NCBI GenBank assembly: GCA_022822005.1
Contig: JAJECO010000008.1
Coordinates: forward strand, 186,001-250,000
DNA length: 64,000 nt
Reading direction: 5' to 3'
DNA from: Candidatus Poribacteria bacterium
GTDB lineage: Bacteria > Poribacteria > WGA-4E > PCPOR2b
The notes under the pieces are model-generated. The model had not been told where the DNA came from and did no database searches. It saw only the letters and a list, made by a program, of their open reading frames with translations. The translations under genes and the position numbers were made by a program. The number at the start of each line of letters is the position of its first letter. Positions within the stretch are counted from its first letter, which is position 1. Shown here piece by piece: positions 35,296 to 61,813 of the stretch.

Positions 35296-35368
35296 TCCGA
35301 AGGGCATCTCTAATCAGTTGTTTACGTATTTGGAACTTCTACTCGAAAATCCGCATGAAAGGTATCTT

Positions 35369-44200: not shown

Positions 44201-44446
44201 ACTGTAATCACTTGTGAACTGACCGGTACCGCTGATGAAATGTCGGTCAAAATTTATAGCCTGTCGGGACGGTTAGTCCGTGAGTTTACGGAGCCAGCAC
44301 GGGCAGGATTCACGATGATACCTTGGGATGGGCGGGATCGAGATGGCGAAGATGTTGCCAACGGCGTGTATTACGGTAAGATTCGCGTTAAAACGGCGGG
44401 GGAGAAGGATTTAACCGAATATATCAAGATAATGAAGCTAAAGTAG
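38222..44446 (+). CDS. Giant gingipain/PorU-type C25 cysteine protease with C-terminal sorting-like domain
   Basis: The 2074-residue protein begins with an export signal (hydrophobic about 21-50). A propeptide-like region and beta-rich domains lead to a Peptidase_C25 domain at about 690-1080. The catalytic dyad is His941 in YAGHGG and Cys975 in LVLSCYNG, with the 34-residue spacing seen in gingipains and PorU. The long C-terminal half is Ig-like, and the last 90 residues (from NYPNPFAGETVI) match the FlgD-Ig/type IX sorting domain. In Bacteroidota PorU cleaves such domains and attaches cargo to the surface. GAGGAGG lies 10 bases before ATG. PorV-like and DUF4159 genes follow in the same operon. 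Confidence 0.88.
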   Translation: MNRLNQHISDFTALKLWAAYLFRFTLCTLCCFYLFDTWTLDVHANANARTDQNGITVEFTLPELEVSTVKRNGIRYQAVSFEGSGFTNEVGNPRLPVSRVILGVPPNVKFNLEILHAPTETRSGYRILPVPHSVPKSSSSDAASLAHPEDFQTLEEEWREDGPAYRSNRSYPKTAAQVVYDGYIRSQRVVYLELRPVQYQPKSRTLRIHSRMAVRVNFVHQGSDNRFPSTSTSFSQFTTTEPASFERMYQNSLLNYDAAKRWRVPTTNEAAAPAGPVVPEQATGERYKILVDKTGIYRLTNEDLRQKWGIDLSRVDPRRLHLRTNNREVPIHIYGEEDGRFDRGDFIEFLGIDAKSRYTRWNVYWLGAERTLGARVSEIHGSPDDPTAKVVPSFRSKLYFEEDHLHNNLRHADPKDVSPDDKHSWYEALDFWYWVGVKNLADANEVDLEFPLYDLTQSFDQPSIHVTLQGGTPTDHEALVSINNIRIDEVKWPSHEVVTVGKTLRVWNNLRDATKGEKNAITLARIDTTEEENTTAFPYHVYIDSFEVEYTRLLKALNDSLEFTTPPSIDPYNTRRQRRLEYTIQTFLSPDVSIFEHDGEVLVSKFQNLKVERVDLDRAERNRLREIYRINAESEGTSEPLPQDIPRVAYNATFQARDAHDAKYIAVSSAGVRQPVRVEAAKPNDLLSPTNGADYLIISHPVFLEPSKRLARWRSTQKGGGYRTKVVDVTQIYDIFSNGMVNPQAIKDFLTYAYKHWQSPALSYVAIMGDGTYDHRGIDKEIYPEPPEVTGYIPTHYIWTLSFGKTSVDHWYTTVNGIDELPDFYIGRLSVETLQQANTVVSKLINYEDKRPNGDWRRRIISVADDEINNASEDIFEESLSALSKNQTLLGYETVPIYLEDVVDMVEANKAAYPELPQRVAKDMIIDAMGDGAVIAQYAGHGGRIVWAHEAIFDNRAIDQVSETDHLPFMLVLSCYNGYFDAPGEPSMAEKLLRKDRSGIIAMLSATRLTYGSGNDSLNNIIFDMIFERNIRQLGPLSFDSKIEQIIQDGRGQLNVMLEYTLFGDPAMRLAMADYEIETDIETRTVAPGQLLKIAPGQIAEVTYDPAIKQKWFTPISDFNGRIYVKAIFPGTYSMLEGEEELLRVYSGNVPVTQEAAVVNGKFPGLSLPVPKGISAGDAHVEFYAESPTHIAASGHSLTVLVPKILDIQPELVDSRPGVEPSQFRVSVQVSDELNEQGIRSVSLEWRDPVKRESFNETMIRDTSRGRGWYTTPKPLPLPANRARIQYEITVVDTDNRYVSSGRRTYRPFVFPDVRVTPGLGFSDPLIYYGYSREDSAWTINADIEQIEDIELKENLEVAFFSGNPDRDGDGVVDTGAKLLGRTQIAPSAWQRKDPIEPHKNSIKTEGETDSLLRPRAFTERPLNTNWIATATLAHELPIGNHEVFVFVDPAFNSAQMPHGKLREGDEKDNISSRLIPIQSSLIGKRDQRIFSRDGALDFRIPAHAVPELAVLTIAPLNNQQQPKPVNQLSLIPVTLPNGTDTAAYNAVVDIASMNQTPLQQPITAELRFDLLALQETIKAELGLEDISNPAPDQLVTIDEGSEVVAQDIGMYLWIDALKNWVRLDSELVKSSDGSMQTQSTLANISASNHGDGEIHSVRVDPTAARIGKWVLLFTSSGTYRLLISEEEKSLELINPDQFVDPTFQDPSVFRDGVAIGIELGENDFQFGDVLTFQVYGSASSGSDTTYYPSGFREQNVGRGSIQHLHLDEDSSMPLDRWVILFINSEQFQIEGEKYGLLSRNGAPVRGKVGSEFIYSQFGLRLKIAAGDREFEAGDSFQFNTKETGRIRAQVPMLGTLTLMQSNDSIPPDLQLTIGKQNFIDGDPVSSEPFIQATLTDDNGIDYITRSVHLEISRDSQPFTPISETEYRLSNVSGSNQVSLNYQSPELEPGTYRARLSASDLDGNRSEAEIEFRVHKILQLLEAMNYPNPFAGETVITCELTGTADEMSVKIYSLSGRLVREFTEPARAGFTMIPWDGRDRDGEDVANGVYYGKIRVKTAGEKDLTEYIKIMKLK

Positions 44447-44457
44447 AGCGGAACGAA

Positions 44458-45474
44458 ATGACGACCAGATTCAGGACGATTTTTATCCTCATTGCCCTCT
44501 GTTGCCACGCTGTTGCTCACGCGGCAGAAAAATATGCGGGCGATTTTCTAACCCTCGGCGTTGGGGCACGCCCCTTGGGTATGGGTGGCAGTTTCGCAGC
44601 CATCGCCGACGATTCCACAGCGGCTTATTGGAATCCGGCTGGCCTCGGACGTTTGCGTCATTCCGAGGCAGCTTTCATGCACTCAAGTCTTGGTGACTTG
44701 GACAGCTACGACTTCGTCAACTATGTTCACCCGATTGGCGGGGCTGCATCGCTTGGGTTGAGTTGGCTTCGGGTGGGGATTGATGACATCCCGATCACAG
44801 CGCTGCCACGCCCTGCAAATCCGGTCAGTCCAGGCAACCGTCCGAAACAGGTCGGCACTTTTAACAGCACCGACAACGCCTTTTTCCTATCCTACGGCAG
44901 GCAGGTCGGATTTAACTTGGGATCAAAGCGGTTGAATCTATTCCTTGGTGGCAGCACTAAGTTAATCTACATCACTGCGCTGGGCAACACGAACGCGCTC
45001 GGCGTAGGCGGAGACCTTGGCGTACTCTGGACAACTCCTCCCGAAAGATCTCCTCAACTGTCAATTGGCCTCGTGGCACAAGATTTTTTCCGGACGAAGT
45101 TATACTGGAACACGCCGCCCGAAAATCCGGGTGAAGCTTCTAACACAGATACGATTGAACCCAATCTGAAGATCGGTCTCTCATACAGACAAGCGATCAA
45201 ACCATTGAAAAGCCACTTCTTATTGACAGTCGATACTGACAGCTTGTATTCTTTTGAGAAGCATTACGGTGCAGAGTACGTGTTTGCGGAACTTCTGTCG
45301 CTAAGGATTGGTGTTCAAGAACGGAAAGGCATCAATACGATCCACTTGATGACTGCCGGCGCAGGGTTACGACTTTCGTTCTTAACCGGCGCCGCTTTCT
45401 CCGTCGATTATGCTTTTTTGAATAATAGCGAATTGGGAAATAGCAACCGGATCTCTTTGATGACACGCTTCTAA
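44458..45474 (+). CDS. PorV/PorQ-family outer membrane protein
   Basis: The 338-residue protein has a signal peptide (cut after residue 22, HAVAHA) and the family opening KYAGDFLTLGVGARPLGMGG, then SFAAIADDSTAAYWNPAGLG, shared by PorV, PorQ and FadL-like barrels. It ends in Phe (LMTRF), as outer-membrane barrels do. In type IX secretion PorV binds the sorting domain of cargo and hands it to PorU. Its start lies 11 bases after the C25 protease stop, so translation is probably coupled. This pairing strengthens the PorU reading of the upstream gene. Confidence 0.87.
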   Translation: MTTRFRTIFILIALCCHAVAHAAEKYAGDFLTLGVGARPLGMGGSFAAIADDSTAAYWNPAGLGRLRHSEAAFMHSSLGDLDSYDFVNYVHPIGGAASLGLSWLRVGIDDIPITALPRPANPVSPGNRPKQVGTFNSTDNAFFLSYGRQVGFNLGSKRLNLFLGGSTKLIYITALGNTNALGVGGDLGVLWTTPPERSPQLSIGLVAQDFFRTKLYWNTPPENPGEASNTDTIEPNLKIGLSYRQAIKPLKSHFLLTVDTDSLYSFEKHYGAEYVFAELLSLRIGVQERKGINTIHLMTAGAGLRLSFLTGAAFSVDYAFLNNSELGNSNRISLMTRF

Positions 45475-46408: not shown

Positions 46409-48370
46409 CTAAAACTTTCCGAAAACGCGCACGAAGGTTTCCATAAAGTTATCATCGTTCACGTCTGCGTTGGCGCGTTGATCGATGTATTGTGCACCGA
46501 TATGCAGAAACAGCTCTTTTTCGTAGGCGACAAAACTTTTTTCCATCTCGGCGAGAAGGGCTTGACGAACAAAATCGTTCCCATCTATGAGCATATCGTT
46601 AAAAAATAGAACCTGCCCGCCTCCAGTGATTTTGATTGTCTTGGTGAACTGATAAACAACTTTGAGAATAAGTGCAGCGGCCGTGTCCCGCACATCCGCT
46701 GCTTCAATTACGCGGAGCCGAATATTGCGTACAGCTTCTTCGCCGTTGAATTCTCCGATTAAGGTGAGATGTTCCAAACGGTCTTCTGCCATCTGAAATC
46801 CATTGCGAACCGTATACTTGAACATAGGCGTAATTTCGAGCGATTTGGATGGGCGTATGCGATAGTTTGTTTTTAGGATGCCAACCTCGTAATGTTTATT
46901 ATCCTGAGCGAAGTCGAGATTGTATCGTAGTTTTACGCGTCCTGTCGTGACCATCTGCTTAATTCCCGAATATTCCCACGTGACCTTGGCGGTGTTGATT
47001 AGATCGTCCTGCATTAACAGTGGGTCTTTTCGTCGCTTCTCGACCTCGACGCCACCATCTATATCAAAAAATGTCACATCCCCGCGTTGTTCCAGCTGCT
47101 GCACACTGGGTTGATCCCGGTAGAGTTGTCCTTCCTCCCTACTCAAAAAACCGGCAAAATACCAGGTCTCGTCGGGGATACGATCTTTAACCCATTTCAA
47201 TTCGTTCTCAACAATTAGGGCTGCATCCTGAGAGAGATCCTTCTTGTAGACCAGATTGGTGAACGCCTTTGTCGCTGTAGATGAAGCCCGACGGAATGCT
47301 GCATCCCTGAGATCTTTTTCAAATTGCAAACCGATGTCAAGATCCGCAGAACTGCCATCACGATTTGTCTTCCGTTTCATTAGCAGCCGTAGTCCGCGTA
47401 ACCCCACATCAAATTCATAGTTGGGGTCTTTATCGTTCTCTTCCTCATCTCGAAGACCGTTGTTATTCTGATCCCTTTCGTCAAGGAAATCCTCATCGAC
47501 ATCAAAGAGTAGAATATCATCCTCATAATCGAAGGTGCCATTGTTATTCTTATCAAGGTCACCGGGAATAATTAGAGAGGGCGGATCTAGCCACGTGTTA
47601 TCAGTGTACCGATCCTGATCGTCGTTATCTCCGACCGAGCGAGAGGCATCGAAACGGGGACCGACGCGGAAGGCTTCCCCCTGAAAAATTGTATCTCCCA
47701 CAGTTCGGAACGCCTTAAATACTGTCGTCGTCGCTTCAAAACGTGAACTGAGATCCTTGCTCAATGCACTTTTTGGGGTCGTCGCGAATTCCGCTTTCAG
47801 GCCGTAGTTCGCAAAATTGGTTTCCATGTCCAAAGCCCACACCGGCGTGTCACGGAAATACCAAGAAGCCCCTAACTTTGACTTTCCGAATTTCGTCACT
47901 TCGCGTATGCCGATTCCAGACCCTTGGATATTTTCTTGACCGATCACCGGATTGAGCAAGCCGGGGACCATTAAGATCATCCAATCGGTACGTTCGGAGC
48001 GCACATCCCATCGCACACCTGTGAGATCAATTTGATCGAAGGTGAATTTTGTAAAGGTGGTGGGAACCTCTCCTAAACTCAAGATGTTTTTGACATTCCC
48101 GGCGGTCTCCTCAATAATCATGACGCTGTGGAAACCCCGTCGAAACACGCGGTCAAAATCGAACTCGTTCTGCCGAACTGAATCCTCTTCTGTATCTGCA
48201 AGAAAATCTCGTTTATTGGTAAAATCATATTCCACACGTCCTGATAGAAAGAGCTTACCAAATAGACTGTAGACATCCTCCGCCCCTGCCGGAAAGGTTA
48301 ATAACCCGAAGAGGCAGATAATCATAAAAGCAAAGATTGAGAACTTCGCCTTTACTTTCCATTTATTCAT
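46409..48370 (-). CDS. Large outer-membrane beta-barrel-like protein with calcium-type loops
   Basis: The 653-residue protein has a signal peptide (FAFMIICLFGLLTFPAGAED) and many alternating beta strands, and it ends GKF with terminal Phe, all signs of an outer-membrane barrel. Near residues 270-320 is an acidic insert with EF-hand-like loops (DLDKNNNGTFDYEDD and DQNNNGLRDEEENDKD), probably an extracellular calcium-binding loop. No named family is recognised; it may be a channel or an anchor. It follows the third propeller gene by 37 bases and is last of the propeller operon, which suggests it may span the outer membrane for the propeller lipoproteins. Confidence 0.72.
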   Translation of the reverse strand: MNKWKVKAKFSIFAFMIICLFGLLTFPAGAEDVYSLFGKLFLSGRVEYDFTNKRDFLADTEEDSVRQNEFDFDRVFRRGFHSVMIIEETAGNVKNILSLGEVPTTFTKFTFDQIDLTGVRWDVRSERTDWMILMVPGLLNPVIGQENIQGSGIGIREVTKFGKSKLGASWYFRDTPVWALDMETNFANYGLKAEFATTPKSALSKDLSSRFEATTTVFKAFRTVGDTIFQGEAFRVGPRFDASRSVGDNDDQDRYTDNTWLDPPSLIIPGDLDKNNNGTFDYEDDILLFDVDEDFLDERDQNNNGLRDEEENDKDPNYEFDVGLRGLRLLMKRKTNRDGSSADLDIGLQFEKDLRDAAFRRASSTATKAFTNLVYKKDLSQDAALIVENELKWVKDRIPDETWYFAGFLSREEGQLYRDQPSVQQLEQRGDVTFFDIDGGVEVEKRRKDPLLMQDDLINTAKVTWEYSGIKQMVTTGRVKLRYNLDFAQDNKHYEVGILKTNYRIRPSKSLEITPMFKYTVRNGFQMAEDRLEHLTLIGEFNGEEAVRNIRLRVIEAADVRDTAAALILKVVYQFTKTIKITGGGQVLFFNDMLIDGNDFVRQALLAEMEKSFVAYEKELFLHIGAQYIDQRANADVNDDNFMETFVRVFGKF

Positions 48371-48407
48371 CTGCTGAACTGTCCTTTTATGTTATACATT
48401 TCACCCT

Positions 48408-51400
48408 TTATATGCCGTCATGATCAAACCGCTCAGTATAAACCGTCCATGTGCCCGTCAGAGAATCATATCGGGTCAACCCGCCATGCGTACCGAACCA
48501 GAGGTAGTCACCATCGGTTGCAATCGATAGAATGCCATTATGGGGTAGCCCATCTGCTCTGGTGAAGTTTGTAAACTGCCCTGTGGTTTTGTCCAACATG
48601 GTAACTCCCTTGTCGAACGTACCGAACCAGACTTGATTCCCGCGAATTGCTATTGATGTAATAAGATTCGAGTCCAAGCCATCCGCTTCTGTAACTGTTT
48701 TCCACGTTCCATTTACCGTGTCATACACTGTCACACCACGTCCGCTACCGAACCAGACCTGCCCGTTGTCAATGGCAATACAACTAATCTCATCACTCGC
48801 TAACCCATCCTCTTGAGTAAAAGTAGTCCACGTCCCCTGTTTGATCGAATAAAGCGAGACCCCTGTCTTTGTTCCAGCCCAAACGCGATTATCATCTACT
48901 GCCAGACATCGCACATCATCATTTTCGAGGCTCTTGGCGTATTTTCCCTCCACTGTTGGCAGGATCTCAATGGCGGCGTTATATGTTTCCCAAGCGTTCC
49001 GATCATCGGAGAGAATACTGTGCTTGCTAATACCGTTTTTTGTTCCAATCCACACATCGCTTCGATTTTCGACAACCGCTCGAATATCCACGCTTGGAAG
49101 TTGGTTCTCTTTAGTATATGATTCAAACCGATCCGCGATTTTATCGTACCGACCAACCCCACCTTCAGTCGCAATCCAAATATACCGTTTCCCAACGGAC
49201 AAGTCAATGACATTGTTATCTACAAGTTCATCTGCTGTCTCTGGCTCCTGTTCTTCCTCATCGTCCTCTTCATCTCCATCCTCCTCCCCATCTCTCTCTG
49301 ATTCTGCCTCCGGTTTTTCAAAGTGCTTCCATCTGTCGTACCGTTTGTCGTATCGACTCAAGCCTCGATGCGTACCTACCCAGACGTACCGGGAGTCGGT
49401 AGCAACAGCAACCGCTCGTCGGTCCGCTAAGGTAGTCGGTTTGGTGAATGATATCCATGTTTCTTTTTCTTTATCATAGCGACTCACGCCTTTCAATGTG
49501 CCGACCCAGACATATTTTGAATCGACTTTAAGTTGGTATCTCCAGACGCTATCATGAACGAGTCCATCCTCGACCGTAAAGGCTGTCCATGCTCCAGACG
49601 CTCGCGAGTATTTTAGCACACCCGCATCGCCCGTGCCGACCCAGAAACCATCGTTATCCTCCGAAATAGCCTCAACCGGTGATTCAGGAAGTCCATCGCT
49701 TTGCGTGAAGGAAGTCCACGACCCGCCCGTTTTATCATATCTGTTGATACCGCTCCAACCGAAGCACCAGACGTAGTTCTCGCTGACCTGTCCAGACCCA
49801 GTCCAATTAACCCGCAGTCCTTTGCGTCTATCATAAATTGTCCAAGTATCGTCGGTGGGCGAATAGTAACTCACACCGCTCGTTCCCCGGTCACTGACCC
49901 ACGAATAAGAACTTCCGCCGCTGGTCCACACGGCCTCTCCGTCCGCAGCAATCCACTCACCGGAGCGCGAAGCCATACCTTGCGCTTCCGTGTATGAGCG
50001 CCAAGTTTTCGTCGTCCGCTCATATCTCTTAACCCCAACGCCATTTGTGGAGAACCAGACATAATCTTTCGTACAGGCAATGTCTTCGATGTACCTTCCG
50101 GGACCTGCTTCCGTCACCTTCACTGATTCCCACTTCTCTGTCCGCGTATCATAATGCGCTGCCACGCCGCCTTGGAAGGCAACCCAAACGCCATGTGGTT
50201 CATCAAGTTCAATTAGTGTAGCATGATGTCCCGGTAGGCCTGATGATCTTGTGAAGTGCGTCCATGTATCAGAGGCTTTGTTGTATCGCAGCACGCCGCC
50301 ATCCCCTGTAGCGCACCATACGTCTTCTGTCCCCACTGCCAATCGTCGAATTGCGGTGATAAACGGAACTTCGGATGAGATGGGTAGTGCGTCCTTTGTG
50401 TACTCCATCCACGTATCGGTACGGCGATCGAATTTCAGAATCGCGCCATTCGGGGAAGCCGCCCAGTTAAGCACCCACAGGTAGTGCCCATCTAACTCCA
50501 TCCAACGTGCCTGATCTTCTCTCAGAATTTCTGTACCGTGATATGGGGTATGCTTATCCCACCGATCTTTCTCTACGTCATAGACAGCAATGCCTGCAAC
50601 CGTACCGAAAAAGATCTGCTTACCCATAACAGCAATACTCTGAACATTATTGTGCAACAAACCCTCCGGCTGCATCGTAAAAATCTGTTGAATTCCGGCT
50701 CCGTCGGAGCGTGCAATTCCAGCCGGTGTTCCGATCCAGATGGTTTCTTTGTCTACCGCAATAGCCCTGACATTCAGGTTTGGCAGACCATCGGTGATGT
50801 GGGTTACCCCCCTTATTCCCCCGCCAGCGGGAGGATAAGGGGGAGGTCGAATAATCCATAACCCATTCCGAGTGCCGACGAGCAATCTTCCATCCGGGCT
50901 GAACGTAAGTGTATTGACATAATCCGTTACCGGGAGAAACTGTTCAAATTTATCCCTCGCAGCATCTCTCCGGTATAACCCTTCAGTTGTTCCCGCCCAA
51001 ACGTCCTCACCAATTGCCAGCACCGCTGTTACCCACTTGCCGGTGAGATAGGGTTGGCACGAAACGTGAAACGTGAAACGTGAAACGCGAGAACCATTCG
51101 CCGAGCCTCGTGAATCCACACTCATTTGATTCGGGGTGATGTGCGTAGATTCGTAGAGACTTCTTGTCCCGCTCTGCGAGGATCCTCGCCTTGTCGGAAT
51201 TTGCTCGACCTCCCCCGATTGTGACGAAGAGGTTAGGGGTTCTTGTATTAAGGCGCTTAATCCACCTTTCGTCCCGACCCAGATCTTATCGGAAAGGTCG
51301 ATACAGGTAACAAAATTGTCCACCAATCCATTCCGATCGGTATAGAAACGCCACCGTTCTCCTTCGAGTTCTCCTAAGCCCAAGGACGTCCCAACCCAGA

Positions 51401-52703
51401 GTGTCCCGTCGTCGGCGTCATCTGCTAAAGCGGTAATATAGTTGGTCGCTAAACCATCTGCTTTGGTGTAGGTTCTCCACGTTTTTTCATGAAGCGCGTA
51501 ACGACTCAGACCTTTATTTGTAGCTGCCCAGAGTGCATTCTCAACTACAACCAGTGATTGAATCTGATTCGACACCAGCGTGTCGCGCCTGGAATACCAT
51601 ATCCACCCATTTGTCACCTTATCGTATTGGCCCAGACCGTGCTCGTATGTACCAATCCAGATATGCCTACCATCAACAACCAACGCGGTAATGTGATCAC
51701 TGACCAAACCTTGTGCTGTCGTGTACTTGAGCCAAGTATCCACCGTCGTGATATATCGTCGAATTCCACGGTCTGCCGAACCGAACCACACATTGTCGCC
51801 ATCAACCGCAATAGCTCTGATGAAATCGCTCTCTATGAGATCTGTTCGGGTATGGCTTTCAGTAAAGGTCTGGTTGATTGTACTGAACTTGCTTACACCC
51901 GATTTCTCCGTCCCCACCCAAACAGCGTCAGGACTTAAAGCGATCCAGCGGATATGGTTTTCTACCAACCCTTCCTCTTTTGTGTAAGTGTTCCATGCGT
52001 CCTTGGGTTTATCGTATCGACGGAGACCGTCTTCTGTACCGAACCAAACATACTCGGATTCCACAGCAATTGCCGTGATTACGTTAAATGAATCTTTATC
52101 CTTCTCTTGCTGTAACGCCCACGCCCCTGTCGTCTTATCATAACGCGAGATACCCGCCTCGGTCCCCACCCAGATATAATTGCCATCCACAGCGATGGCA
52201 GTAACTCTGTTGCTTGCTATGCCGTCCCGTTGTTGGAACTTCGTCCAACGTTTCGCTGAATTGGGATCATAAAGACTGATACCGAGTATCGTACCTATCC
52301 AGACAGATTCTCCGTCGGCGGCGATGGCAGTAATGTCATCAGAGAGCAACCCATCGGACCGGTCTAACTTCGTCCAACGGTTATCCGCTTTATGATAGAT
52401 GCTGACACCCCGATCTGTCCCTACCCAGACCTGGTCAGCTGAGGTTGATATACAACGGACATTATCACTGACTAACGCTTGTTTCGTCGCTGTTTGGGTA
52501 ATCGCGGCTTCTTCCAGAACAGTCGATTTTTTCTCCGACGGATCGATTTGAGTGAGACCACATCCAAGGTGAAAGAGTAGGATGAAAACTTGGAAATAGG
52601 ACAGAGAAACAGAAAAATAACCCAACAGCAGGCGTCTTCCCGTCCCGCTATGCGAGGGCTCTCGTTTTATCTGGATTTTCGTGTCCTTATTAATCTTCAG
52701 CAT
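48408..52703 (-). CDS. Giant beta-propeller lipoprotein C (29 blade motifs, repeat-invaded)
   Basis: From ATG 52703 the protein has 1431 residues. Its N-terminus has a hydrophobic stretch ending LLFHLGC, a loose lipobox. The body is a chain of two-component-regulator propeller (Reg_prop) repeats of about 42 residues, e.g. VTAIAVDGNYIWVGTEAGIS; 29 can be counted by the VWxGT-type core. There is no kinase or Y_Y_Y domain, unlike hybrid two-component sensors. Three places break the pattern: residues about 12-25, a 50-residue insert near 500-550 and a Pro-Gly insert near 620-637. All are encoded by repeat-like DNA. The start overlaps the end of the previous gene by 14 bases. Confidence 0.85.
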   Translation of the reverse strand: MLKINKDTKIQIKREPSHSGTGRRLLLGYFSVSLSYFQVFILLFHLGCGLTQIDPSEKKSTVLEEAAITQTATKQALVSDNVRCISTSADQVWVGTDRGVSIYHKADNRWTKLDRSDGLLSDDITAIAADGESVWIGTILGISLYDPNSAKRWTKFQQRDGIASNRVTAIAVDGNYIWVGTEAGISRYDKTTGAWALQQEKDKDSFNVITAIAVESEYVWFGTEDGLRRYDKPKDAWNTYTKEEGLVENHIRWIALSPDAVWVGTEKSGVSKFSTINQTFTESHTRTDLIESDFIRAIAVDGDNVWFGSADRGIRRYITTVDTWLKYTTAQGLVSDHITALVVDGRHIWIGTYEHGLGQYDKVTNGWIWYSRRDTLVSNQIQSLVVVENALWAATNKGLSRYALHEKTWRTYTKADGLATNYITALADDADDGTLWVGTSLGLGELEGERWRFYTDRNGLVDNFVTCIDLSDKIWVGTKGGLSALIQEPLTSSSQSGEVEQIPTRRGSSQSGTRSLYESTHITPNQMSVDSRGSANGSRVSRFTFHVSCQPYLTGKWVTAVLAIGEDVWAGTTEGLYRRDAARDKFEQFLPVTDYVNTLTFSPDGRLLVGTRNGLWIIRPPPYPPAGGGIRGVTHITDGLPNLNVRAIAVDKETIWIGTPAGIARSDGAGIQQIFTMQPEGLLHNNVQSIAVMGKQIFFGTVAGIAVYDVEKDRWDKHTPYHGTEILREDQARWMELDGHYLWVLNWAASPNGAILKFDRRTDTWMEYTKDALPISSEVPFITAIRRLAVGTEDVWCATGDGGVLRYNKASDTWTHFTRSSGLPGHHATLIELDEPHGVWVAFQGGVAAHYDTRTEKWESVKVTEAGPGRYIEDIACTKDYVWFSTNGVGVKRYERTTKTWRSYTEAQGMASRSGEWIAADGEAVWTSGGSSYSWVSDRGTSGVSYYSPTDDTWTIYDRRKGLRVNWTGSGQVSENYVWCFGWSGINRYDKTGGSWTSFTQSDGLPESPVEAISEDNDGFWVGTGDAGVLKYSRASGAWTAFTVEDGLVHDSVWRYQLKVDSKYVWVGTLKGVSRYDKEKETWISFTKPTTLADRRAVAVATDSRYVWVGTHRGLSRYDKRYDRWKHFEKPEAESERDGEEDGDEEDDEEEQEPETADELVDNNVIDLSVGKRYIWIATEGGVGRYDKIADRFESYTKENQLPSVDIRAVVENRSDVWIGTKNGISKHSILSDDRNAWETYNAAIEILPTVEGKYAKSLENDDVRCLAVDDNRVWAGTKTGVSLYSIKQGTWTTFTQEDGLASDEISCIAIDNGQVWFGSGRGVTVYDTVNGTWKTVTEADGLDSNLITSIAIRGNQVWFGTFDKGVTMLDKTTGQFTNFTRADGLPHNGILSIATDGDYLWFGTHGGLTRYDSLTGTWTVYTERFDHDGI
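50808..50843. repeat. Palindromic repeat inside propeller gene C
   Basis: These 36 bases form a near-perfect hairpin (CCCCCTTAT...ATAAGGGGG arms with CCCGC/GCGGG inside). Read in frame they encode the PPPYPPAGGGIRG segment, which replaces a normal blade loop. The sequence style matches the intergenic GGGGG hairpin repeats at 4402 and 8234. Confidence 0.75.
51057..51195. repeat. Repeat-derived insert inside propeller gene C
   Basis: 51057-51090 holds tandem GTGAAAC units (four, the last imperfect). 51160-51195 matches 52636-52671 at about 27 of 36 positions and in the same reading phase; its core GCGAGGATCCTCGC is a palindrome. Together they encode most of a 50-residue stretch without propeller features. 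Confidence 0.6.
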
Positions 52704-55700
52704 AGCTTGTCCACGTCCCAGTTTTCTGATTGTACCGACACAAACCCCGCTCTGTGCCAAACCAGAGCTGATCACCGTCAAATGCAATTGCCTCAACTCG
52801 ATTATGGGACAAGCCGTCGTCTATATTAAAGACCCGCCAGTCGCCCGTGTTTCTATCCAGCCGTGTGACGCCCGCATCTGCCGAACCGAACCAGATTTCC
52901 TCCCCATTCAAAGCGATGCAGGTGACAACATCGCTTGCCAAACCGTCCGATTGGGTGTAGGTAACGAAATCCCCAGATTCGACGTTGTATTTTGTCGCTC
53001 CCTTACCCGTACCGAACCAGATGTCCCCTTCATCAATGACAATGACGCTAGTGTCTGTGAGGTTGTTCTGGCTCTTCACCTTATCAAGGGCGGAAACATT
53101 TTTAGCAAGAGTTTCCCATGTCTTCTTATCTTTATCATATCGGCAAGTCCCTTTGTCTGTGCCGAACCAGATCAACTTCTCACCGATCGCAACGCAACGG
53201 ACATCGTCGCTCAAAAGCGTTTGTGCATATTTCTCATCGGCTCCCATGTTTTCGACTTCCAATGCCTGTGTGTGCGACTCCCAAGCATTCGGATCATCAG
53301 ACAGGCGATTGAAGGTCGCAACGCCGCGGTCTGTAGAGACCCATAAGTCGTAGCCTTTGACATCCAGATCTCGAATGGTATTGGAAGGCAAACCGTTTTC
53401 AGTGGTGTACTTTTCCCAACGATCGCCGGCTTTATCGTAGCGCAGGACACCATTGTTAGTACCGAGCCACGCATATTTCTCGTCAATCGTTAGGCAAGTG
53501 ACACTCGGTGTGTCGTCCTCCATATCTTCCAGCCCCTTCAGACGAGGAGCAAACCAACGGTCTGTCTGTTTGTCGTAGCGATGTAAGCCGTTGGTCGTCC
53601 CCAACCACACATAACGTGCTTCGGCGGCGATTGCGTACACTTTTGATTCGCGGAGCGTTCGTGCCAGTGGAGACTGCGTGAAAGTGGTCCAAACCTCTTC
53701 TTTAAGATCATATTGGCTCAATCCTCCAGCGGTCCCCACCCAAACATAATCATCGTCTACCACCAAGGAATGTTCGATGATGTCACTGCTTGGCAGGCCG
53801 TTCTCCTCACCGAAGAATGCCCAATCTTTTGCAGCTTTGTTATACCGAGCTAATCCCTGACGATCTGCCGCAAACCAAACAGTATCAGTGGTCTCAACAA
53901 CCTGTTTTGTACGGCCGAAATCAAGCCCTTCAATCTCCGGGAGGTTTAATGTTGTCCACGAATCGGTCTTATTGTTATATTTCGACGCAAGCGCGCCGCT
54001 CCACCCCGAGTATGTAAGCCAAACACCATCCTGCCCCTTATCGATCCCGAAATTCACATCTGAGAGCACATGCTGGCTTGAGAATATCTCCCATTCTTCG
54101 GTTCGCCAATGATAACGGCTAGCATCTCCCCATCCCGTAACCCAGATATAATCGCCATCAATGAGCAGGTCATTGGTTTCATTGTTACCCAAACCGTGTG
54201 CTTCCGTAATGCTACTCCACTGATCCGTTGATTTATTATATCGCTTAATTCCCTCCCAAACCGTTGTTACCCAGACGTATTGCGGATCAACGGCAATGGT
54301 CCCAATGTTACTCCATTCTACGCTCGGCACGACTTCATACGATTTCCACGTGTCTGTTTCCAGAGAATAACGACTTACCACCCCACCAACATGCGCCATC
54401 CACAGGTGTGGGGAATCAAGCACAATACTCCAAACTTCATGGTTTGGCAGACCGTCCGCGACCGTATAATGACGCCACGTATCCGTCGCTTTGTCGTAGC
54501 GTAACAATCCTCCGTTGGTGCCGACCCACACATCACTTTCATCCACAGTCAGCGCGTGTATGCGCGTGATTGGTCTTTCAATAGATTGCAATGGAAGGTC
54601 CTCTTTGCTGAAGAAGCGGAATGTATCTGTCTGTCTGTTATACCTGACAATGGCGCCTTCTGTAGAGTCTTTCCAATTGCCGAACCAGAGTCCATCGCCA
54701 TCCTCGGCGAGCTTGCTGACCCAATTCGAGCGTAGCACTTCTGTAGTTGTCGCCGCAACGTGTTTCGACCACTTCCCTGTCGTTTCGTCCAAACAACTGA
54801 CACCGGCAATCGTACCCACCCAAACCTTGTCGCTGTTCCTTGCAATGACCTTAACATTATCGGAGACGAGTCCGCCGTTGGTATCCTCGCGGGTATAATA
54901 TGTCCACAGATCTTTTGTAACATCGTACTTTGCCAATCCCGAGGGCCCACCTATCCAGATGGTATCGTCACCGACAGTAATTGCCCTGACGTTGGCATGA
55001 AGCGTGAAACGTGAAATCCCGCCGATTCCATCGGAATCCGAGGACCGGGACGTGGATCCTTGATGAATCGGGACGGAAGGTGTGATTATCGACTTGTCTA
55101 TCTGTACTAAACCGGATATTGTACCGATCCAGATAGAATTATCCTTTATTGCAACGGTGTTAATCACTTCCGAGGGCAACCCATCCGCTTCAGTCAGTGT
55201 GCCTGAAGCGCGGGTAGCCCGATCATAGTAGACGAGTCCCTCTGTCGTACCAACCCAAACAAAGTTCTCCTCTAATTTGATATCGTTGATCCAACCGGAG
55301 ACTTGCAATTCGGAAGGATGTGTATTCCATTTCCGGTTTTGAGGATCGTAGGTCGAAAGCCCTGCCTTGGTCCCAATCCATAGACGTAAAGATGTTCTCT
55401 CCGCCTCTCTATTCATCGTTTCCCACGCAACGCAGGTCACGAAGTCATGGGGCAATCCATCTTTCTCTGTAAAAAATGTCCACTTGTCCTCGCCCTCACG
55501 TCGCACTCCCAAACCGCGAGGTGTGCCAACCCAGAGATCTTCCCCCACTTCTACAACAGCAGTAATGTAGTTATCTGCCAAACCTTCCGCCTTACTCAAC
55601 GTTCGCCAATTGAGTCTCGGTGAAAAGTTCGGCGTTTCGGGATAGATCGCCTGGTTCAAGCCAGATCGTGTTGCTACCCAAACGGACTCATCTGTCACTA

Positions 55701-56748
55701 CAATGTCCTTTACATCATTGTCGCTCAACGCTTTAGCCTCACCATAAATCCTCCACTGTTCACGACGTAAATCATATCGCACCAGTCCGTGCTCGTATGT
55801 GCCAAACCACACCACATTCCCATCTGCAGCAATTGCCGTGATATGATTGGAAGGTAACCCTGCTTCTGCCGTATACTCCCGCCATGTATTAACAGATAGA
55901 ATGTAGCGCTGTGCGCCGCTGTCGGCAGTCCCTAACCATAGCGACGTTCCGTCTACTGCCAATGCGTTTACCTGGTCGCTCGTCAGTCGATCTCTTTTGG
56001 TATACGCCCTGACAAATTCCGAATTCCGTTGGTCATAGCGGCTGAGTCCCTTATTCTCCGTACCAAACCAAACGGAATCTTCATCAGCGGCAATTGCGGT
56101 CACGCTATTATCAATAAGTCCGCTGTCCTTATCATAGTTGTTCCATGAATCTGTGAGTTTGTCATACCTAGAAACCCCGTTCTCCGTACCAACCCAGATG
56201 TAACCATCATCAACCACGATCTGTGTGACATCATCGCCTGCGAGCCCATCCTCCTCGCGCTTCTGCGCCCAACTGTTCGTCTCTTTGTCATACCGAGAGA
56301 GTCCATTTGGCGTACCGAACCAGATAAACCTCGAATCAACAGCGACGCAAGAAACCGCCCGTCCGGCTAAGCCATCGCGGGGCATGTAGCGCGTCCACGT
56401 ACCTGTGGAAATCTCATAACAACTGACACCATCACGCGTACCGATCCAGACCTGAAGGTCGTCCAAAGCGATAGACAAAACGTGGTTGTGAGCCAAACCG
56501 TCTTTGACAGTGAAATTATCCCATCTCCCTTGCGCTTTATCGTACCGACTCAGACCTCGATCGGTCCCGACCCACGTGTAGCGTGAATCGACAGCTAAGG
56601 ATAGGACACGATCGCTGAGGAGTTGGCTGATTACATCGCCCTCATCATCAACTAAGTAATCGGGGGGCATCTGCTGTGGATCATGTGTGGAACAACTTGT
56701 CAAAAACAGGAGTATTATGAATCCCAAGATTATGCAAATTTGACGCAT
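52690..56748 (-). CDS. Giant beta-propeller lipoprotein B (29 blade motifs)
   Basis: The 1352-residue protein has a clear lipoprotein signal (IILGFIILLFLTSCST, lipobox LTSC). It then consists of propeller repeats in the same order as its two paralogues; 29 VWxGT-type cores can be counted, e.g. VTQIVVDDGYIWVGTENGVS. Blades 15-20 deviate from the consensus (LWFGNWKDSTEGAIVRY, IWVTGWGDASRYHW). An insert with GSTSRSSDSDGIGGISRFTL breaks the pattern after blade 12. No enzymatic domain is present. It starts 44 bases after the methyltransferase stop. A surface or periplasmic binding role is likely; the ligand is unknown. Confidence 0.87.
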   Translation of the reverse strand: MRQICIILGFIILLFLTSCSTHDPQQMPPDYLVDDEGDVISQLLSDRVLSLAVDSRYTWVGTDRGLSRYDKAQGRWDNFTVKDGLAHNHVLSIALDDLQVWIGTRDGVSCYEISTGTWTRYMPRDGLAGRAVSCVAVDSRFIWFGTPNGLSRYDKETNSWAQKREEDGLAGDDVTQIVVDDGYIWVGTENGVSRYDKLTDSWNNYDKDSGLIDNSVTAIAADEDSVWFGTENKGLSRYDQRNSEFVRAYTKRDRLTSDQVNALAVDGTSLWLGTADSGAQRYILSVNTWREYTAEAGLPSNHITAIAADGNVVWFGTYEHGLVRYDLRREQWRIYGEAKALSDNDVKDIVVTDESVWVATRSGLNQAIYPETPNFSPRLNWRTLSKAEGLADNYITAVVEVGEDLWVGTPRGLGVRREGEDKWTFFTEKDGLPHDFVTCVAWETMNREAERTSLRLWIGTKAGLSTYDPQNRKWNTHPSELQVSGWINDIKLEENFVWVGTTEGLVYYDRATRASGTLTEADGLPSEVINTVAIKDNSIWIGTISGLVQIDKSIITPSVPIHQGSTSRSSDSDGIGGISRFTLHANVRAITVGDDTIWIGGPSGLAKYDVTKDLWTYYTREDTNGGLVSDNVKVIARNSDKVWVGTIAGVSCLDETTGKWSKHVAATTTEVLRSNWVSKLAEDGDGLWFGNWKDSTEGAIVRYNRQTDTFRFFSKEDLPLQSIERPITRIHALTVDESDVWVGTNGGLLRYDKATDTWRHYTVADGLPNHEVWSIVLDSPHLWMAHVGGVVSRYSLETDTWKSYEVVPSVEWSNIGTIAVDPQYVWVTTVWEGIKRYNKSTDQWSSITEAHGLGNNETNDLLIDGDYIWVTGWGDASRYHWRTEEWEIFSSQHVLSDVNFGIDKGQDGVWLTYSGWSGALASKYNNKTDSWTTLNLPEIEGLDFGRTKQVVETTDTVWFAADRQGLARYNKAAKDWAFFGEENGLPSSDIIEHSLVVDDDYVWVGTAGGLSQYDLKEEVWTTFTQSPLARTLRESKVYAIAAEARYVWLGTTNGLHRYDKQTDRWFAPRLKGLEDMEDDTPSVTCLTIDEKYAWLGTNNGVLRYDKAGDRWEKYTTENGLPSNTIRDLDVKGYDLWVSTDRGVATFNRLSDDPNAWESHTQALEVENMGADEKYAQTLLSDDVRCVAIGEKLIWFGTDKGTCRYDKDKKTWETLAKNVSALDKVKSQNNLTDTSVIVIDEGDIWFGTGKGATKYNVESGDFVTYTQSDGLASDVVTCIALNGEEIWFGSADAGVTRLDRNTGDWRVFNIDDGLSHNRVEAIAFDGDQLWFGTERGLCRYNQKTGTWTSYAED

Positions 56749-56792
56749 CCTTGTGTGCCTTTCTGCATAAGAGAGCGACTGATGTTCTTTAC

Positions 56793-57653
56793 TTAAGATG
56801 CCTTTTCCAAAACCGTGAAATAATGTGTTTCTTCTTCAATGTCTTGACTCAGATCCCGCCGCGAGAAGAATCCCTTTAAAGTCCAACCTTCTAATGTTCG
56901 TACCAGCAAAGATAGCAGCCAAGGGCTATAGTATCGAATACTCCAGTCATCGGTTGTTTCGTAAACGCTATCATTACTGTGAATCCGACAGCGCATCACC
57001 AAACGGTTTATTCCTTCAACCCAATCCCCGGGAAAGTCTTCATGCCAGACCTCTACATATCCATTATCCAGCTGAACTGTCTTTTCACCCCATATTCCTG
57101 TTTCATTAGCGGCACGAATTCTGCCTTGCGCGTCCATATCAATAATGTAAAGTCCACCCGGTTTGAGGTGCCGCCTGACGCATTGGAAATGGTTCTTAAT
57201 GTCCTCGTAAGCTGTGATAATCGGAAAAGTCTCTGCCATGAAGATAGCGCAATCAAAACCGCCAACCCCGAGGTTAAAATCCACAACATTAGCCTGAATG
57301 AGTTCGATTTTAACCCCCGCTGTTTCTATGCGGCGTTGTGCGCTTTCAAGCATATTTGGATTTTTGTCGATGCTTGTAACGGAAAAGCCAGCTTGAGCGA
57401 GAAGGGTTCCATGTCCACAAGTCCCACACGCGAGTTCAAGAATGCTGCCTTTGGTAATATCCTGCTCCGTTAGCAATCGCTGGATGGAATTGACTTCCAC
57501 TTGAATTTGTTCAATTGGTGCGCGAAGCACAGCATCATAGACATCGGGAAAGTCGTAAATGTTTGGCATGAAAGGTTGCTTTTCTGTAATGTAGAGTTCG
57601 TCCTGGAGTCGAATACATTCTATTTTCAAATCATCTTCGGTCTTCTTCTTCAT
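56793..57653 (-). CDS. Class I SAM-dependent methyltransferase
   Basis: The 286-residue protein has motif I SILELACGTCGHGTLLAQAG (about residues 92-111), motif II acidic SIDKNPNMLE, and motif IV FDCAIFMAETFP, the Rossmann methyltransferase order. It is cytoplasmic. ATG 57653 lies within the last codons of propeller gene A (23-base overlap), so translation is probably coupled; a shorter start at MPNIYDFPDVYD is possible. Placement between two giant surface-protein genes is odd. It may modify a component or a small molecule of the same system, but no substrate can be read. Confidence 0.82.
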   Translation of the reverse strand: MKKKTEDDLKIECIRLQDELYITEKQPFMPNIYDFPDVYDAVLRAPIEQIQVEVNSIQRLLTEQDITKGSILELACGTCGHGTLLAQAGFSVTSIDKNPNMLESAQRRIETAGVKIELIQANVVDFNLGVGGFDCAIFMAETFPIITAYEDIKNHFQCVRRHLKPGGLYIIDMDAQGRIRAANETGIWGEKTVQLDNGYVEVWHEDFPGDWVEGINRLVMRCRIHSNDSVYETTDDWSIRYYSPWLLSLLVRTLEGWTLKGFFSRRDLSQDIEEETHYFTVLEKAS

Positions 57654-60600
57654 CGAAATGTGGAGTAAAGATTGTCCACGTATCTGTCACTGTGTCATGC
57701 CGACTCAGTCCACGTTCCGTCCCCACCCAAAGGAAATCACCATCTACGGCAAGCGCAAACACACGATTATGACTGAGTCCATCTTTTTGCGTAAAATGTT
57801 GCCACTCCATCGTCGTCTTATTGTAGCGTGACACACCAGCATCGAAACTGCCAAACCACACGAAGTTATCATTTGCAATGATACTGGTGATCTGATCGTT
57901 GGCTAAACCGTCAGACGATGTGAAAACACTCCATTCTTCTGTTTCTGTGTTTAGCCTGCTGACACCGCCCTCCGTACCGAACCAAACTGAATCGCCATCA
58001 ATGCAGATACTACTTACTTTATCGTGGTGCAATCCCTCCTGCTTTGCGTAGGTCACCCAGACCTCCTTCTTCATGTCATAACGACTGATACCTCTCTCTG
58101 TCCCCACCCAGACGTAGCGATTGCCTACCGCTATACTTGTCACTCGGTTATCTATGAGACTATTGGCGTACTCTTGGGACAATAACATAGTGTCCACATC
58201 ATCAGCACGCCTAAAGGTATCCCAAGCATTCGGGTCGTCCGAAAGCGTATTGTACCTGCTCACCCCTTTATCCGTACCGACCCATAAGGTGCGCCCCTCC
58301 ACATCAGCAACTTTGACGAATGTATCAGCCAAGCCATTTTCAGCTTCGTGCAGGTCTGCCCAATGCGCGGATTTATCGAACCGAGTAACACCTTTAGAGG
58401 TTGCTATCCACAAGTATTTATCATCGACGGCAAGATCGTTCACGGACTCCTCTACAATGCGCTTCTGTAACCAAAAGTCATTCTGCTTATCGTAGCGCCT
58501 TGCACCCCGCTCTGTTCCACAATAAACATAGCGCGAATCGACAGCGACCGCATGCACCACTTCAGCGGGCAGGGCGCGTCTTCCCGTATATACCGTCCAG
58601 CTATCTTTACGCATGTCATAATGACTGAGACCGCTACGGCTGCCCAGCCAGATGAAGTTGCTATCGGCTTTCAAAGTTGGATAGTTGATGCGATTATTCA
58701 GCAGTCCATCCTCTTCCGTAAAAACCGTCCAAGATGAGGAGGCCTTATCGTATCGACTGATTCCGTGTTCTTCGCTTCCGAACCAGACGAATTCAGTCGT
58801 CTCTTGAACATCTCTGAAATTGTTTCCCACACTCTCTGGATGCCCTCGGAAGACCTGCCAAGTGCGATTGGCTCTATGGAATCCGCTGGCAGGGACGGTG
58901 TCATCTCCTTCCCACCAACTTTGGTTATACAACACCCACATATAGTCTACCCCGGAGATTACCTCCCGGATCTGGTCGGCAACTAACCCTTTACTGGAAT
59001 TAATAATCACCCAGCTGTCTGTGTTCGCGTCGTACTTGCTCAAGCCTCCACCCCAGCCGCCGTAAGCCCACACATCATTGTTATCCACAACAACAAAGCC
59101 GACGGAATCATCCTGTAGACCATCTGCTGAAGTGTAGCGCTTCCATGTTTCATTCTGTTTATCGTAACGTGCCACGCCCTCCCTCTGTGCAGGCACCCAA
59201 ACATAACGTCTGTCTGCTGCAAGACGCGTGCGGTATGATTCCATGTCAGGAGAGATTTCCTTAAAAACCACTTGATGGGTCTCCCATTCATCTGTATCCC
59301 GTCGATAGCGACAGATACGATTATCCCTCAAGACAACCCATACATCATTTTCATCAACCATTAATGTTGTTGTTTTATTCGCCGCCAGTCCATCCTTGGT
59401 GGTGTAGTGGCGCCAGGTATCCGAGTTTTTATAGTAAGCGAGCACCCCCCCGTCCGTGGCGAACCATACGCTGTCGTTAGTTACCTCCATCCAATCAATT
59501 TGAGCGATGTATGGAGTTTCTTCATTCGGAGCAGACGGATGCAGATTATCCTCGTTAACGCGCCTCGAATCTCGGACTGATTGGTGTGAAGCCCCGCGGT
59601 GATTTTCTGTCACATCTTCTTTCATGTAGTGCGTCCATGTTCCTGTCCGCTTGTCATACCGAATGATTTCGCCGTTGGAGGTGTTCTGCCACGCCAAAAA
59701 CCACACCCAATCGCCATCTAGCTCTGTATGTTGTATGCCGCTGTGACGGAGGACAACCGTGCGTTCTTTTGCACGAATCGCTTCCCAAGCATTATTCTCA
59801 TGAGAATAGACACCTAAGCCGCCAATTGTCCCCAGCCAAACTTGATTATCCGCAACACAAATATCTCGGACATTTTCGTGTCCCATCGCCACCCCCGACT
59901 GGGTTAAGTCAAACTGTCGCCAGTCCTCCGATTTTATGGTGGAGCCCCCCCACCGATTGCGAGGGAGTACACCCAAGCCACTCGGCGTGCCCACCCACAG
60001 CGCATCTTCAGTGATAGCGAGTGCTCTCACATTGTTATTCGGCAGCCCATCCTCTGTTGTGAAATGATGCCATCTTCTTTCCCGTTTATCGAACATGGAA
60101 AGCCCATCGCGTGTCCCTACCCAGAGTATATTCTTTTCATTTGATATGGTGTTAATATGAAGAGGAAAGTGCGAGGTGTGAAAGGTGAAATGTCCATCGG
60201 TGAGTTGGATTAACCCTCGATCGGTTCCGAGCCAAAGCGAGTTACTATCAATGGCGATAGCATTTATCCGCATTCCTTTTAGGCGTTCAGAGATCCGCCA
60301 TTTATCACTCTCCCGGTTATACTGCCAAAGTCCAGCGCGCGTACCGACCCAAACCGTCTGATCAACCACCGCTATATCGAGGACAAAATCACTGAGGAGT
60401 CCGTGTTGACGGTTCCAGAATTTCCACTGATTGTTCTGATATCGTCCTACGCCCTTTGACGTTCCGACCCAGATGGCATCACCATCAGCGGCAACCCGGG
60501 TGATATAATTGGTCGTCAAGCCCTGCGCTTTAGTGTAGGTTTTCCATTCTCCGGATTGCAAGTCAAATCGACTGAGCCCCATCGCCGTGCCAACCCAAAG

Positions 60601-61752
60601 GACGCCATCCTGTTTGGCAATCGATTTGATGTTGTCGCTCACCAATCCTTCCGCCTTCTTGACGATACTCCAAAGCCCGTGAATTTTATCAAATCGCGCT
60701 AGACCGTCCTCGTAAGTGCCGAACCAGACATACTGACCATCAACCGCCATCACTGTGATATTTGACGATGGAAGCCCATCTTCCATTTTGTAGTGGACCC
60801 ACGTATCAACCGGTTTGATATATCTTTGAACACCCTCATTTGCGGTACCTATCCAGACATACAGACCATCAACCAAGATGTAGTTAATCTTATCCGTTTC
60901 GAGCAGATCGGTGCGTGTGTAGGTTTTTACAAATGTTTGCTCGGTAGTGCTGTATAAACTCACGCCCGCGTTTTGCATACCGAACCAGATAAAATCTTCA
61001 TCAATAGCAATAGTTGTAACGCTGTCATCCGCTAAGCCGGCGCTTTTGGTCAGCTGTGTCCATGAATCGATTTTCTTATCGTATCTAGATACACCTTTGT
61101 CGGTCGCGAACCAGACATACTCATCCTCGACCGCGATAGCGGAGATCTCATTACTGGTCAGACCACCGTCGTCGGTGGTGCGAAGCGCCCAAACATCGAT
61201 CACTTTATTATATCGGCTCAAGCCTTTATCTGTGCCGAACCAGATGTAGTTCCCATCTACACCGATAGCCATGACACGATTACTCGGCAAACCATCGTCG
61301 CGGGTGTAGGTTGTCCACTTATCGATTTTGGGTTCATATTTTGAAACGCCGGATTCCGTTCCAAACCAGATGGTGTTTCCATCTACTGCCACGCTAGAGA
61401 CTTTGTTATTCGCCAGCCCATCTTCGACTGTGTAGCTTGTCCACAAATTTTCACGTTTGTTGAAACGGTTGATCCCTTTGTCGGTTGCGACCCAAACATG
61501 TTGGGCATCTGCTGCGATAGCGTTGATTTGATCGCTCAAAAGTGCAGTTGACTTCCAAGGTGCAGCTGGATCGGTCGCTTCCGGAGTCTCATCAGGTGTG
61601 GTAAACATGCAGCCAATAGGGAATGATAGAATAACAATAAACCACCACCAGCCGAATGTCATTTTTCGGGTCCTACGCTCCCATACCTGGACACGCTCTT
61701 CCCAATTCTGGTCAAATCTATTCAATAACACCCCAAATGCGTTCAGATTCAT
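57631..61752 (-). CDS. Giant beta-propeller protein A (29 blade motifs), first gene of the operon
   Basis: The open frame gives 1373 residues. A hydrophobic segment TFGWWWFIVILSFPIGC with a lipobox-like end begins at residue 31, so Met31 (ATG 61662, with TAGGACC upstream) may be the true start of a lipoprotein. Then come propeller repeats, e.g. VSSVAVDGNTIWFGTESGVS; 29 cores are counted, matching B and C. Blades 15-20 deviate in the same places (VWFLAWQNTSNGEIIRY, VWAYGGWGGGLSKY). The C-terminus is a short acidic tail. No signalling domain follows. A TTGAAG/TATAAT promoter lies just upstream; the methyltransferase, B, C and the barrel gene follow. Confidence 0.86.
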   Translation of the reverse strand: MNLNAFGVLLNRFDQNWEERVQVWERRTRKMTFGWWWFIVILSFPIGCMFTTPDETPEATDPAAPWKSTALLSDQINAIAADAQHVWVATDKGINRFNKRENLWTSYTVEDGLANNKVSSVAVDGNTIWFGTESGVSKYEPKIDKWTTYTRDDGLPSNRVMAIGVDGNYIWFGTDKGLSRYNKVIDVWALRTTDDGGLTSNEISAIAVEDEYVWFATDKGVSRYDKKIDSWTQLTKSAGLADDSVTTIAIDEDFIWFGMQNAGVSLYSTTEQTFVKTYTRTDLLETDKINYILVDGLYVWIGTANEGVQRYIKPVDTWVHYKMEDGLPSSNITVMAVDGQYVWFGTYEDGLARFDKIHGLWSIVKKAEGLVSDNIKSIAKQDGVLWVGTAMGLSRFDLQSGEWKTYTKAQGLTTNYITRVAADGDAIWVGTSKGVGRYQNNQWKFWNRQHGLLSDFVLDIAVVDQTVWVGTRAGLWQYNRESDKWRISERLKGMRINAIAIDSNSLWLGTDRGLIQLTDGHFTFHTSHFPLHINTISNEKNILWVGTRDGLSMFDKRERRWHHFTTEDGLPNNNVRALAITEDALWVGTPSGLGVLPRNRWGGSTIKSEDWRQFDLTQSGVAMGHENVRDICVADNQVWLGTIGGLGVYSHENNAWEAIRAKERTVVLRHSGIQHTELDGDWVWFLAWQNTSNGEIIRYDKRTGTWTHYMKEDVTENHRGASHQSVRDSRRVNEDNLHPSAPNEETPYIAQIDWMEVTNDSVWFATDGGVLAYYKNSDTWRHYTTKDGLAANKTTTLMVDENDVWVVLRDNRICRYRRDTDEWETHQVVFKEISPDMESYRTRLAADRRYVWVPAQREGVARYDKQNETWKRYTSADGLQDDSVGFVVVDNNDVWAYGGWGGGLSKYDANTDSWVIINSSKGLVADQIREVISGVDYMWVLYNQSWWEGDDTVPASGFHRANRTWQVFRGHPESVGNNFRDVQETTEFVWFGSEEHGISRYDKASSSWTVFTEEDGLLNNRINYPTLKADSNFIWLGSRSGLSHYDMRKDSWTVYTGRRALPAEVVHAVAVDSRYVYCGTERGARRYDKQNDFWLQKRIVEESVNDLAVDDKYLWIATSKGVTRFDKSAHWADLHEAENGLADTFVKVADVEGRTLWVGTDKGVSRYNTLSDDPNAWDTFRRADDVDTMLLSQEYANSLIDNRVTSIAVGNRYVWVGTERGISRYDMKKEVWVTYAKQEGLHHDKVSSICIDGDSVWFGTEGGVSRLNTETEEWSVFTSSDGLANDQITSIIANDNFVWFGSFDAGVSRYNKTTMEWQHFTQKDGLSHNRVFALAVDGDFLWVGTERGLSRHDTVTDTWTIFTPHFDEEEDRR

Positions 61753-61784
61753 GATAGAATAGTTAAATGTCTACTGATTTTGGA

Positions 61785-61813
61785 ATTATACCACAGGCAT
61801 ATAAAGCCTTCAA
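61785..61813 (-). promoter_or_regulatory. Promoter of the propeller operon
   Basis: On the minus strand TTGAAG (complement at 61808-61813), 17-bp spacer, TATAAT (complement at 61785-61790). Transcription would start near 61778, compatible with either start of propeller gene A. Confidence 0.75.

Follow-up and report, generated by a model that had tools for sequence, protein, structure and literature searches.

How many genes of an operon belong to one functional unit, and what kind of apparatus would that unit build? The question is raised by a locus in a 64,000-nucleotide stretch of DNA from a Candidatus Poribacteria bacterium (contig JAJECO010000008.1 of assembly GCA_022822005.1, positions 186,001 to 250,000; this whole stretch is termed the window), in which the genes for three paralogous giant propellers, A, B and C, a methyltransferase (MT) and an outer-membrane beta-barrel lie on the minus strand behind one sigma-70-type promoter (Table 1). 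A first-pass annotation had taken these five genes, in this order, as a conserved unit. Comparison with related genomes revealed that the conserved unit is smaller and consists of the barrel and one 29-blade lipoprotein propeller. The latter, termed P0, is the propeller of loci with a single propeller gene; the genome under study carries its own copy on another contig (C59). Poribacteria are known chiefly from marine sponges (PMC3909097), and the pair constitutes a candidate envelope apparatus of this sponge-associated, uncultured phylum, about whose outer-membrane biology hardly anything is known.

Occurrence and linkage of the propeller-barrel pair

Barrel and giant-propeller family are both present in 64 of 78 related genomes and both absent from the same 14. 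Taxonomically, these absences are spread over at least six places (g3, g5, g6, g8, g11 and f5), and decayed barrel remnants were found in G009 and G047. The corresponding value for coinciding absences, 1/C(78,14) or about 1e-15, is not a fair probability, as the genomes are related and neighbouring genes can be lost together. Two controls showed other patterns: PorV is encoded in all 78 genomes, and an SLC12-like permease that lies beside P0 in some genomes has an occurrence unlike that of the pair, which rules it out as a third component.

Among 56 neighbourhoods examined from other genomes, most feature one propeller of ~1,340-1,550 amino acids immediately upstream of the barrel and on the same strand. 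When 49 fetched loci, the window and six genomes assessed by coordinates (G031, G037, G045, G060, G064, G069) are counted together, the pair is adjacent and on the same strand in 56 of the 60 decidable genomes, and each of the exceptions (G001, G002, G070, G074) has an unlinked propeller. Two loci of deep-branching Poribacteria (L169, L177) show the opposite order, with the barrel first and about 1 kb between the genes, so that linkage has survived rearrangement. Apart from the propeller, no neighbour of the barrel is shared by more than about half of the loci, and no 29-blade propeller was found in 15 searched genomes of other phyla.

Within the window itself the first-pass annotation proved accurate. 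The five open reading frames are real and lie where it had placed them, the MT gene, recognized by its Methyltransf_25 match, is located between A and B, and the last gene encodes a barrel ending in phenylalanine. A single promoter stands at the head of the operon, the proposed end at 61813 being the first base of its -35 element. A and MT overlap by 23 bp, while the remaining junctions are overlaps or gaps of at most about 45 bp. With dN/dS values of 0.10-0.15 for A-C, 0.04-0.06 for the barrel and 0.14 for MT versus G006, the genes are under purifying selection; these low values, together with orthologues throughout the phylum, argue against a chance arrangement. Where the annotation had looked to scattered genes, an unlinked barrel or MT, or a fused kinase as counter-evidence, the kinase-free propeller and its barrel stand as a conserved pair and the five-gene unit falls, since three propellers and MT are limited to certain lineages.

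Architecture of the propellers

The Pfam domain Reg_prop (PF07494) is present in A, B and C with E values of 1e-42 to 1e-45 and scores of 137-147 bits (cut-off 20.4). A hidden Markov model (HMM) built from the window's own repeats yielded 29 blades each in A, B and C, the number given by the first-pass annotation, and 29 in P0 of contig C59, with a blade that an insert splits taken as one; in C, a single blade reaches just -2.9 bits. Across 63 giant propellers of the phylum, 52 have 29 blades, ten have 28, and one frameshifted copy has 25. The 28-blade copies usually contain a double-length gap with room for one further blade, which was probably missed rather than being absent, and copies from deep-branching Poribacteria have 29 or 28. 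As nearly all 63 proteins, the deep-branching copies included, share this count, 29 looks like a fixed architecture. Repeat number is expected to drift in propeller-type repeat proteins; its maintenance phylum-wide and through a triplication (see below) implies a fixed higher-order architecture. Similarity between blades tentatively suggests a partition into blocks 1-7, 8-14, 15-21 and 22-29, of which the first resembles the last.

The beta-propeller fold is borne out by an AlphaFold2 model of A (residues 60-1259), which has regular four-stranded blades at a mean pLDDT of 78, near 90 in the first half. In Foldseek searches this model matched sensor ectodomains of the BT4663 type best, with PorZ (5m11) among the top matches. 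A Pfam scan of A-C detected no Y_Y_Y, kinase or regulator domain, in agreement with the earlier description of the propellers as kinase-free and at variance with a hybrid two-component sensor, nor did it detect a Por_Secre_tail; no more than about ten residues follow blade 29.

The proposal that all three propellers are lipoproteins is clear for B, as well as for P0, where a lipobox is nearly universal. For the window's A and C, whose lipoboxes are atypical, it is uncertain, and the feature has been lost in some relatives. The same genome also encodes an ordinary sensor (on contig C26) with Reg_prop, Y_Y_Y and HisKA domains as well as a 1207-residue Reg_prop protein with a FlgD_ig tail.

The barrel

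The barrel is conserved across the class at 58-98% identity. It has no match in Pfam or NCBIfam, which includes plug or TonB-dependent receptor domains in both collections and POTRA or Omp85 domains in Pfam, and a barrel profile found no PDB sequence up to E 10. Its outer-membrane beta-barrel character follows from a signal peptide, many long predicted strands and a C-terminal aromatic residue. An AlphaFold2 model, of low confidence (pLDDT 54), places consecutive long strands over residues 119-590, and Foldseek returned 61 matches to it at E <= 0.001, all outer-membrane barrels among the matches listed.

Two short acidic motifs stand out in an alignment of 27 barrel orthologues. D273, N275, N277, G278, D281 and D284 of the first and D300, N302, N304, G305, D308 and E311 of the second are invariant. 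The spacing of both fits calcium-binding loops, and the barrel may bind calcium through them. Unnamed barrel-like proteins of 800-1100 residues that share the acidic loop region occur elsewhere in Poribacteria (L117, L118, L120); the two that were scanned, from L117 and L118, match nothing in Pfam or NCBIfam.

Triplication of the propellers and the methyltransferase

In the phylogenetic tree, A, B and C each form a clade of their own with 100% support together with their counterparts from a second genus (G006) and a second family (G012), a result that comes with a long-branch warning, while P0 of contig C59 groups with single propellers of other families. Since the clades are shared with G006 and G012, the triplication is old and, in this sample, restricted to families f1 and f2. 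The three propellers, proposed as a general feature, are a lineage-specific expansion; the general unit contains one.

The genome under study has A-B-C at the locus and P0 elsewhere. G006 and G012 contain A-B-C and no P0, and G001 and G002 contain P0 and no A-C. The barrel can thus occur with either set, and propellers of the two kinds seem to be interchangeable. In G001 and G002, where A, B and C have been deleted, the promoter and opening codons of A lead into a short remnant or nearly straight into the barrel gene. Retention of promoter and barrel supports one transcription unit and a continued need for the barrel.

MT is located between A and B only in the genome under study and in G006, i.e., in two of six three-propeller loci. 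It is absent from G003, G004, G005 and G012 as well as from the one-propeller loci examined. It was rejected as a component of the unit, and with it the five-gene order; MT is a passenger or local addition.

Neighbouring genes

Parts resembling a type IX secretion system occur in Poribacteria, namely a C25 peptidase that carries a propeptide and a tail of the sorting type, a PorV relative in every genome, and SprA_N matches in 73 of 78 genomes that are weak and mostly lie within open reading frames of about 2,150-2,300 residues. Earlier work reported sorting domains in Poribacteria and no structural Por genes (Kamke et al., 2014; PMC3909097). The window also encodes a protein that combines two PDZ domains with subsequent HEAT repeats.

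Table 1. Coordinates of features at the locus and elsewhere; positions refer to the window unless a locus or contig is given
Feature	Position	Strand	Remarks
Sigma-70-type promoter	61785..61813	-	TTGAAG - 17 bp - TATAAT; -35 at 61813-61808, -10 at 61790-61785; ATG of A 32 bp downstream; read from sequence
Propeller A	57631..61752	-	29 blades, blade 1 at residue 73; atypical lipobox PIGC at residue 48
Class I SAM (S-adenosylmethionine) methyltransferase (MT)	56793..57653	-	Methyltransf_25, E 1.9e-16
Propeller B	52690..56748	-	29 blades; good lipobox LTSC
Propeller C	48408..52703	-	29 blades, one weak; atypical lipobox HLGC; reading frame opens at TTG 52796, likely start ATG 52703
Outer-membrane beta-barrel	46409..48370	-	653 residues, signal peptide, C-terminal VFGKF
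Calcium-loop-like motif 1 of barrel	47519..47554	-	D273-K-N-N-N-G-T-F-D-Y-E-D284
Calcium-loop-like motif 2 of barrel	47438..47473	-	D300-Q-N-N-N-G-L-R-D-E-E-E311
A-C deletion junctions	L043 2900-3900; L044 3100-3700		G001 retains 107-residue A/B chimera
C25 peptidase	38222-44446	+	type IX-like part
PorV relative	44458-45474	+	type IX-like part
SprA_N match	G000:C44:30180-30488		type IX-like part; G000 is the genome under study
PDZ-HEAT protein	35282-37027	+	PDZ x2, then HEAT repeats
Reg_prop sensor kinase	L077 7981-11400		in the genome under study
1207-residue Reg_prop/FlgD_ig protein	L078 6844-10467		in the genome under study
Unnamed barrel-like proteins	L117 1107-3560; L118 977-4264; L120 971-3919		share acidic loop region

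Proposed function and alternatives

The reading that we favour, with a confidence that is about even, is a dedicated two-protein outer-membrane complex, in which the barrel serves as anchor and possibly as channel and the large propeller as binding platform. A 29-bladed lipoprotein, i.e., P0 in most Poribacteria and A, B and C besides P0 in the genome studied here, would dock on the barrel and would present several rings, about four (7+7+7+8 is one possibility). A, B and C would be diversified versions able to take the place of P0 on that barrel or to act beside it, presumably with differing ligands. Both the physical association and the membrane side on which the propellers would lie are proposals, for which the functional analogue would be an anchor with a lipoprotein receptor such as SusC-SusD, or PorZ as a surface subunit. 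A more far-reaching version appears possible and is put forward tentatively: the pair may represent a new class of outer-membrane machine, ancestral to Poribacteria, in which a strictly 29-bladed lipoprotein is the obligate partner, perhaps the lid or receptor, of a calcium-loop barrel and interchangeable propellers set specificity.

Several points weigh against such a complex. The barrel model is too weak for conclusions on topology, and the lipobox cysteine, and hence a lipid anchor, is missing from B and C in G006 and G012. The shared losses are in part due to adjacency, as a single deletion takes both genes; nor are the genomes independent of one another. In addition, no ligand, transporter or enzyme is linked consistently, and the binding role is read from the fold family alone. 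The natural losses of the pair offer a ready comparison.

Among the alternatives, a periplasmic scaffold or assembly factor fares best, although we regard it as unlikely. The propellers would then face the periplasm, as BamB does on BamA, and help to fold, load or gate the barrel or its cargo. The periplasmic leaflet is the default destination of outer-membrane lipoproteins, a lipoprotein propeller with a barrel recalls the BamB-BamA arrangement, and constraint is stronger on the barrel than on the propellers. On the other hand, 29 blades are far beyond the eight of BamB, no POTRA domain was detected in a barrel devoid of any Pfam domain, the pair is missing from 14 genomes, unlike the BAM machinery, and the diverged triplicate paralogues fit diversification of ligands better.

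An accessory role in type IX-like secretion, with the propellers acting like PorZ, is considerably less probable. It is favoured by the NCBIfam PorZ model NF052228, which matches A at 3.8e-30, by Pfam PorZ_N above its cut-off, by the structural match to PorZ and by the PorU-like C25 peptidase and PorV relative that are encoded convergently to the operon in the window. However, the PorZ scores, 105 bits for A and 88.8 for P0, stay far below the 260-bit cut-off of that equivalog model, and the sorting domain is lacking. As PorV and SprA-like genes are present in most genomes without the pair, that system can do without it; a core type IX role was rejected on these occurrences. A link to the adjoining PorU-PorV genes was likewise rejected, because their linkage to the operon was observed in the window's genus alone and PorV is universal.

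It is similarly improbable that the propellers are kinase-free sensors, i.e., ectodomains that kept sensing and relay the signal via the barrel or a separate transducer. Their best solved relatives are sensor ectodomains and the genome encodes a conventional Reg_prop sensor, whereas A-C contain neither Y_Y_Y nor kinase, no further neighbour of the barrel is common to more than about half of the loci, and a barrel would be an unusual partner for signalling. Finally, mere chance or inherited gene order without joint function, for which conservation of order within families and the loss of both genes by one deletion could be cited, is as improbable in view of the linkage that persists in reversed order in deep branches, the unlinked P0 that still accompanies the barrel in the four exceptional genomes and the neighbouring SLC12-like transporter, which does not co-occur in this way.

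Comparison with known systems

The preferred two-protein complex is made of parts of known kinds. The fixed propeller-barrel combination, held to be undescribed by the first-pass annotation, is not described in the papers searched, which lie mostly outside subscription journals, and the Poribacteria papers among them make no mention of 29-blade propellers.

The closest relative of the propellers by blade family is the Reg_prop ectodomain of BT4663 (PDB 4a2l/4a2m; phmmer 2.1e-32 to A). It has 14 blades, whereas the giant propellers have 29, lack Y_Y_Y and kinase domains, are lipid-anchored in the case of P0 and B, and are paired with a barrel. PorZ resembles them as an envelope protein with propellers of the Reg_prop type and partial matches to both PorZ models. 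It differs by its sorting domain and about half the number of blades, and the occurrence of the Poribacteria propellers is uncorrelated with PorV or SprA-like genes.

In SusC-SusD systems, an outer-membrane barrel and a lipoprotein are encoded by adjacent genes and have undergone lineage-specific expansion. Both traits recur here; the barrel, however, lacks the plug and TonB-dependent receptor domain, and a propeller takes the place of the helical SusD fold. BamB-BamA likewise combines a propeller lipoprotein with an outer-membrane barrel and differs in POTRA domains, blade number and the absence of the pair from some genomes. Unnamed large barrels of about 800-1100 residues from Latescibacterota, Gemmatimonadota and Poribacteria have in common with the barrel of the pair an acidic region rich in Asn and Asp as well as barrel segments, at about 21-38% identity; they are longer, and at the loci outside Poribacteria no propeller gene lies nearby. 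On the features that were tested, the pair is distinct from hybrid sensors, PorZ, SusC-SusD and BamA-BamB, and its propellers belong to the Reg_prop fold family.

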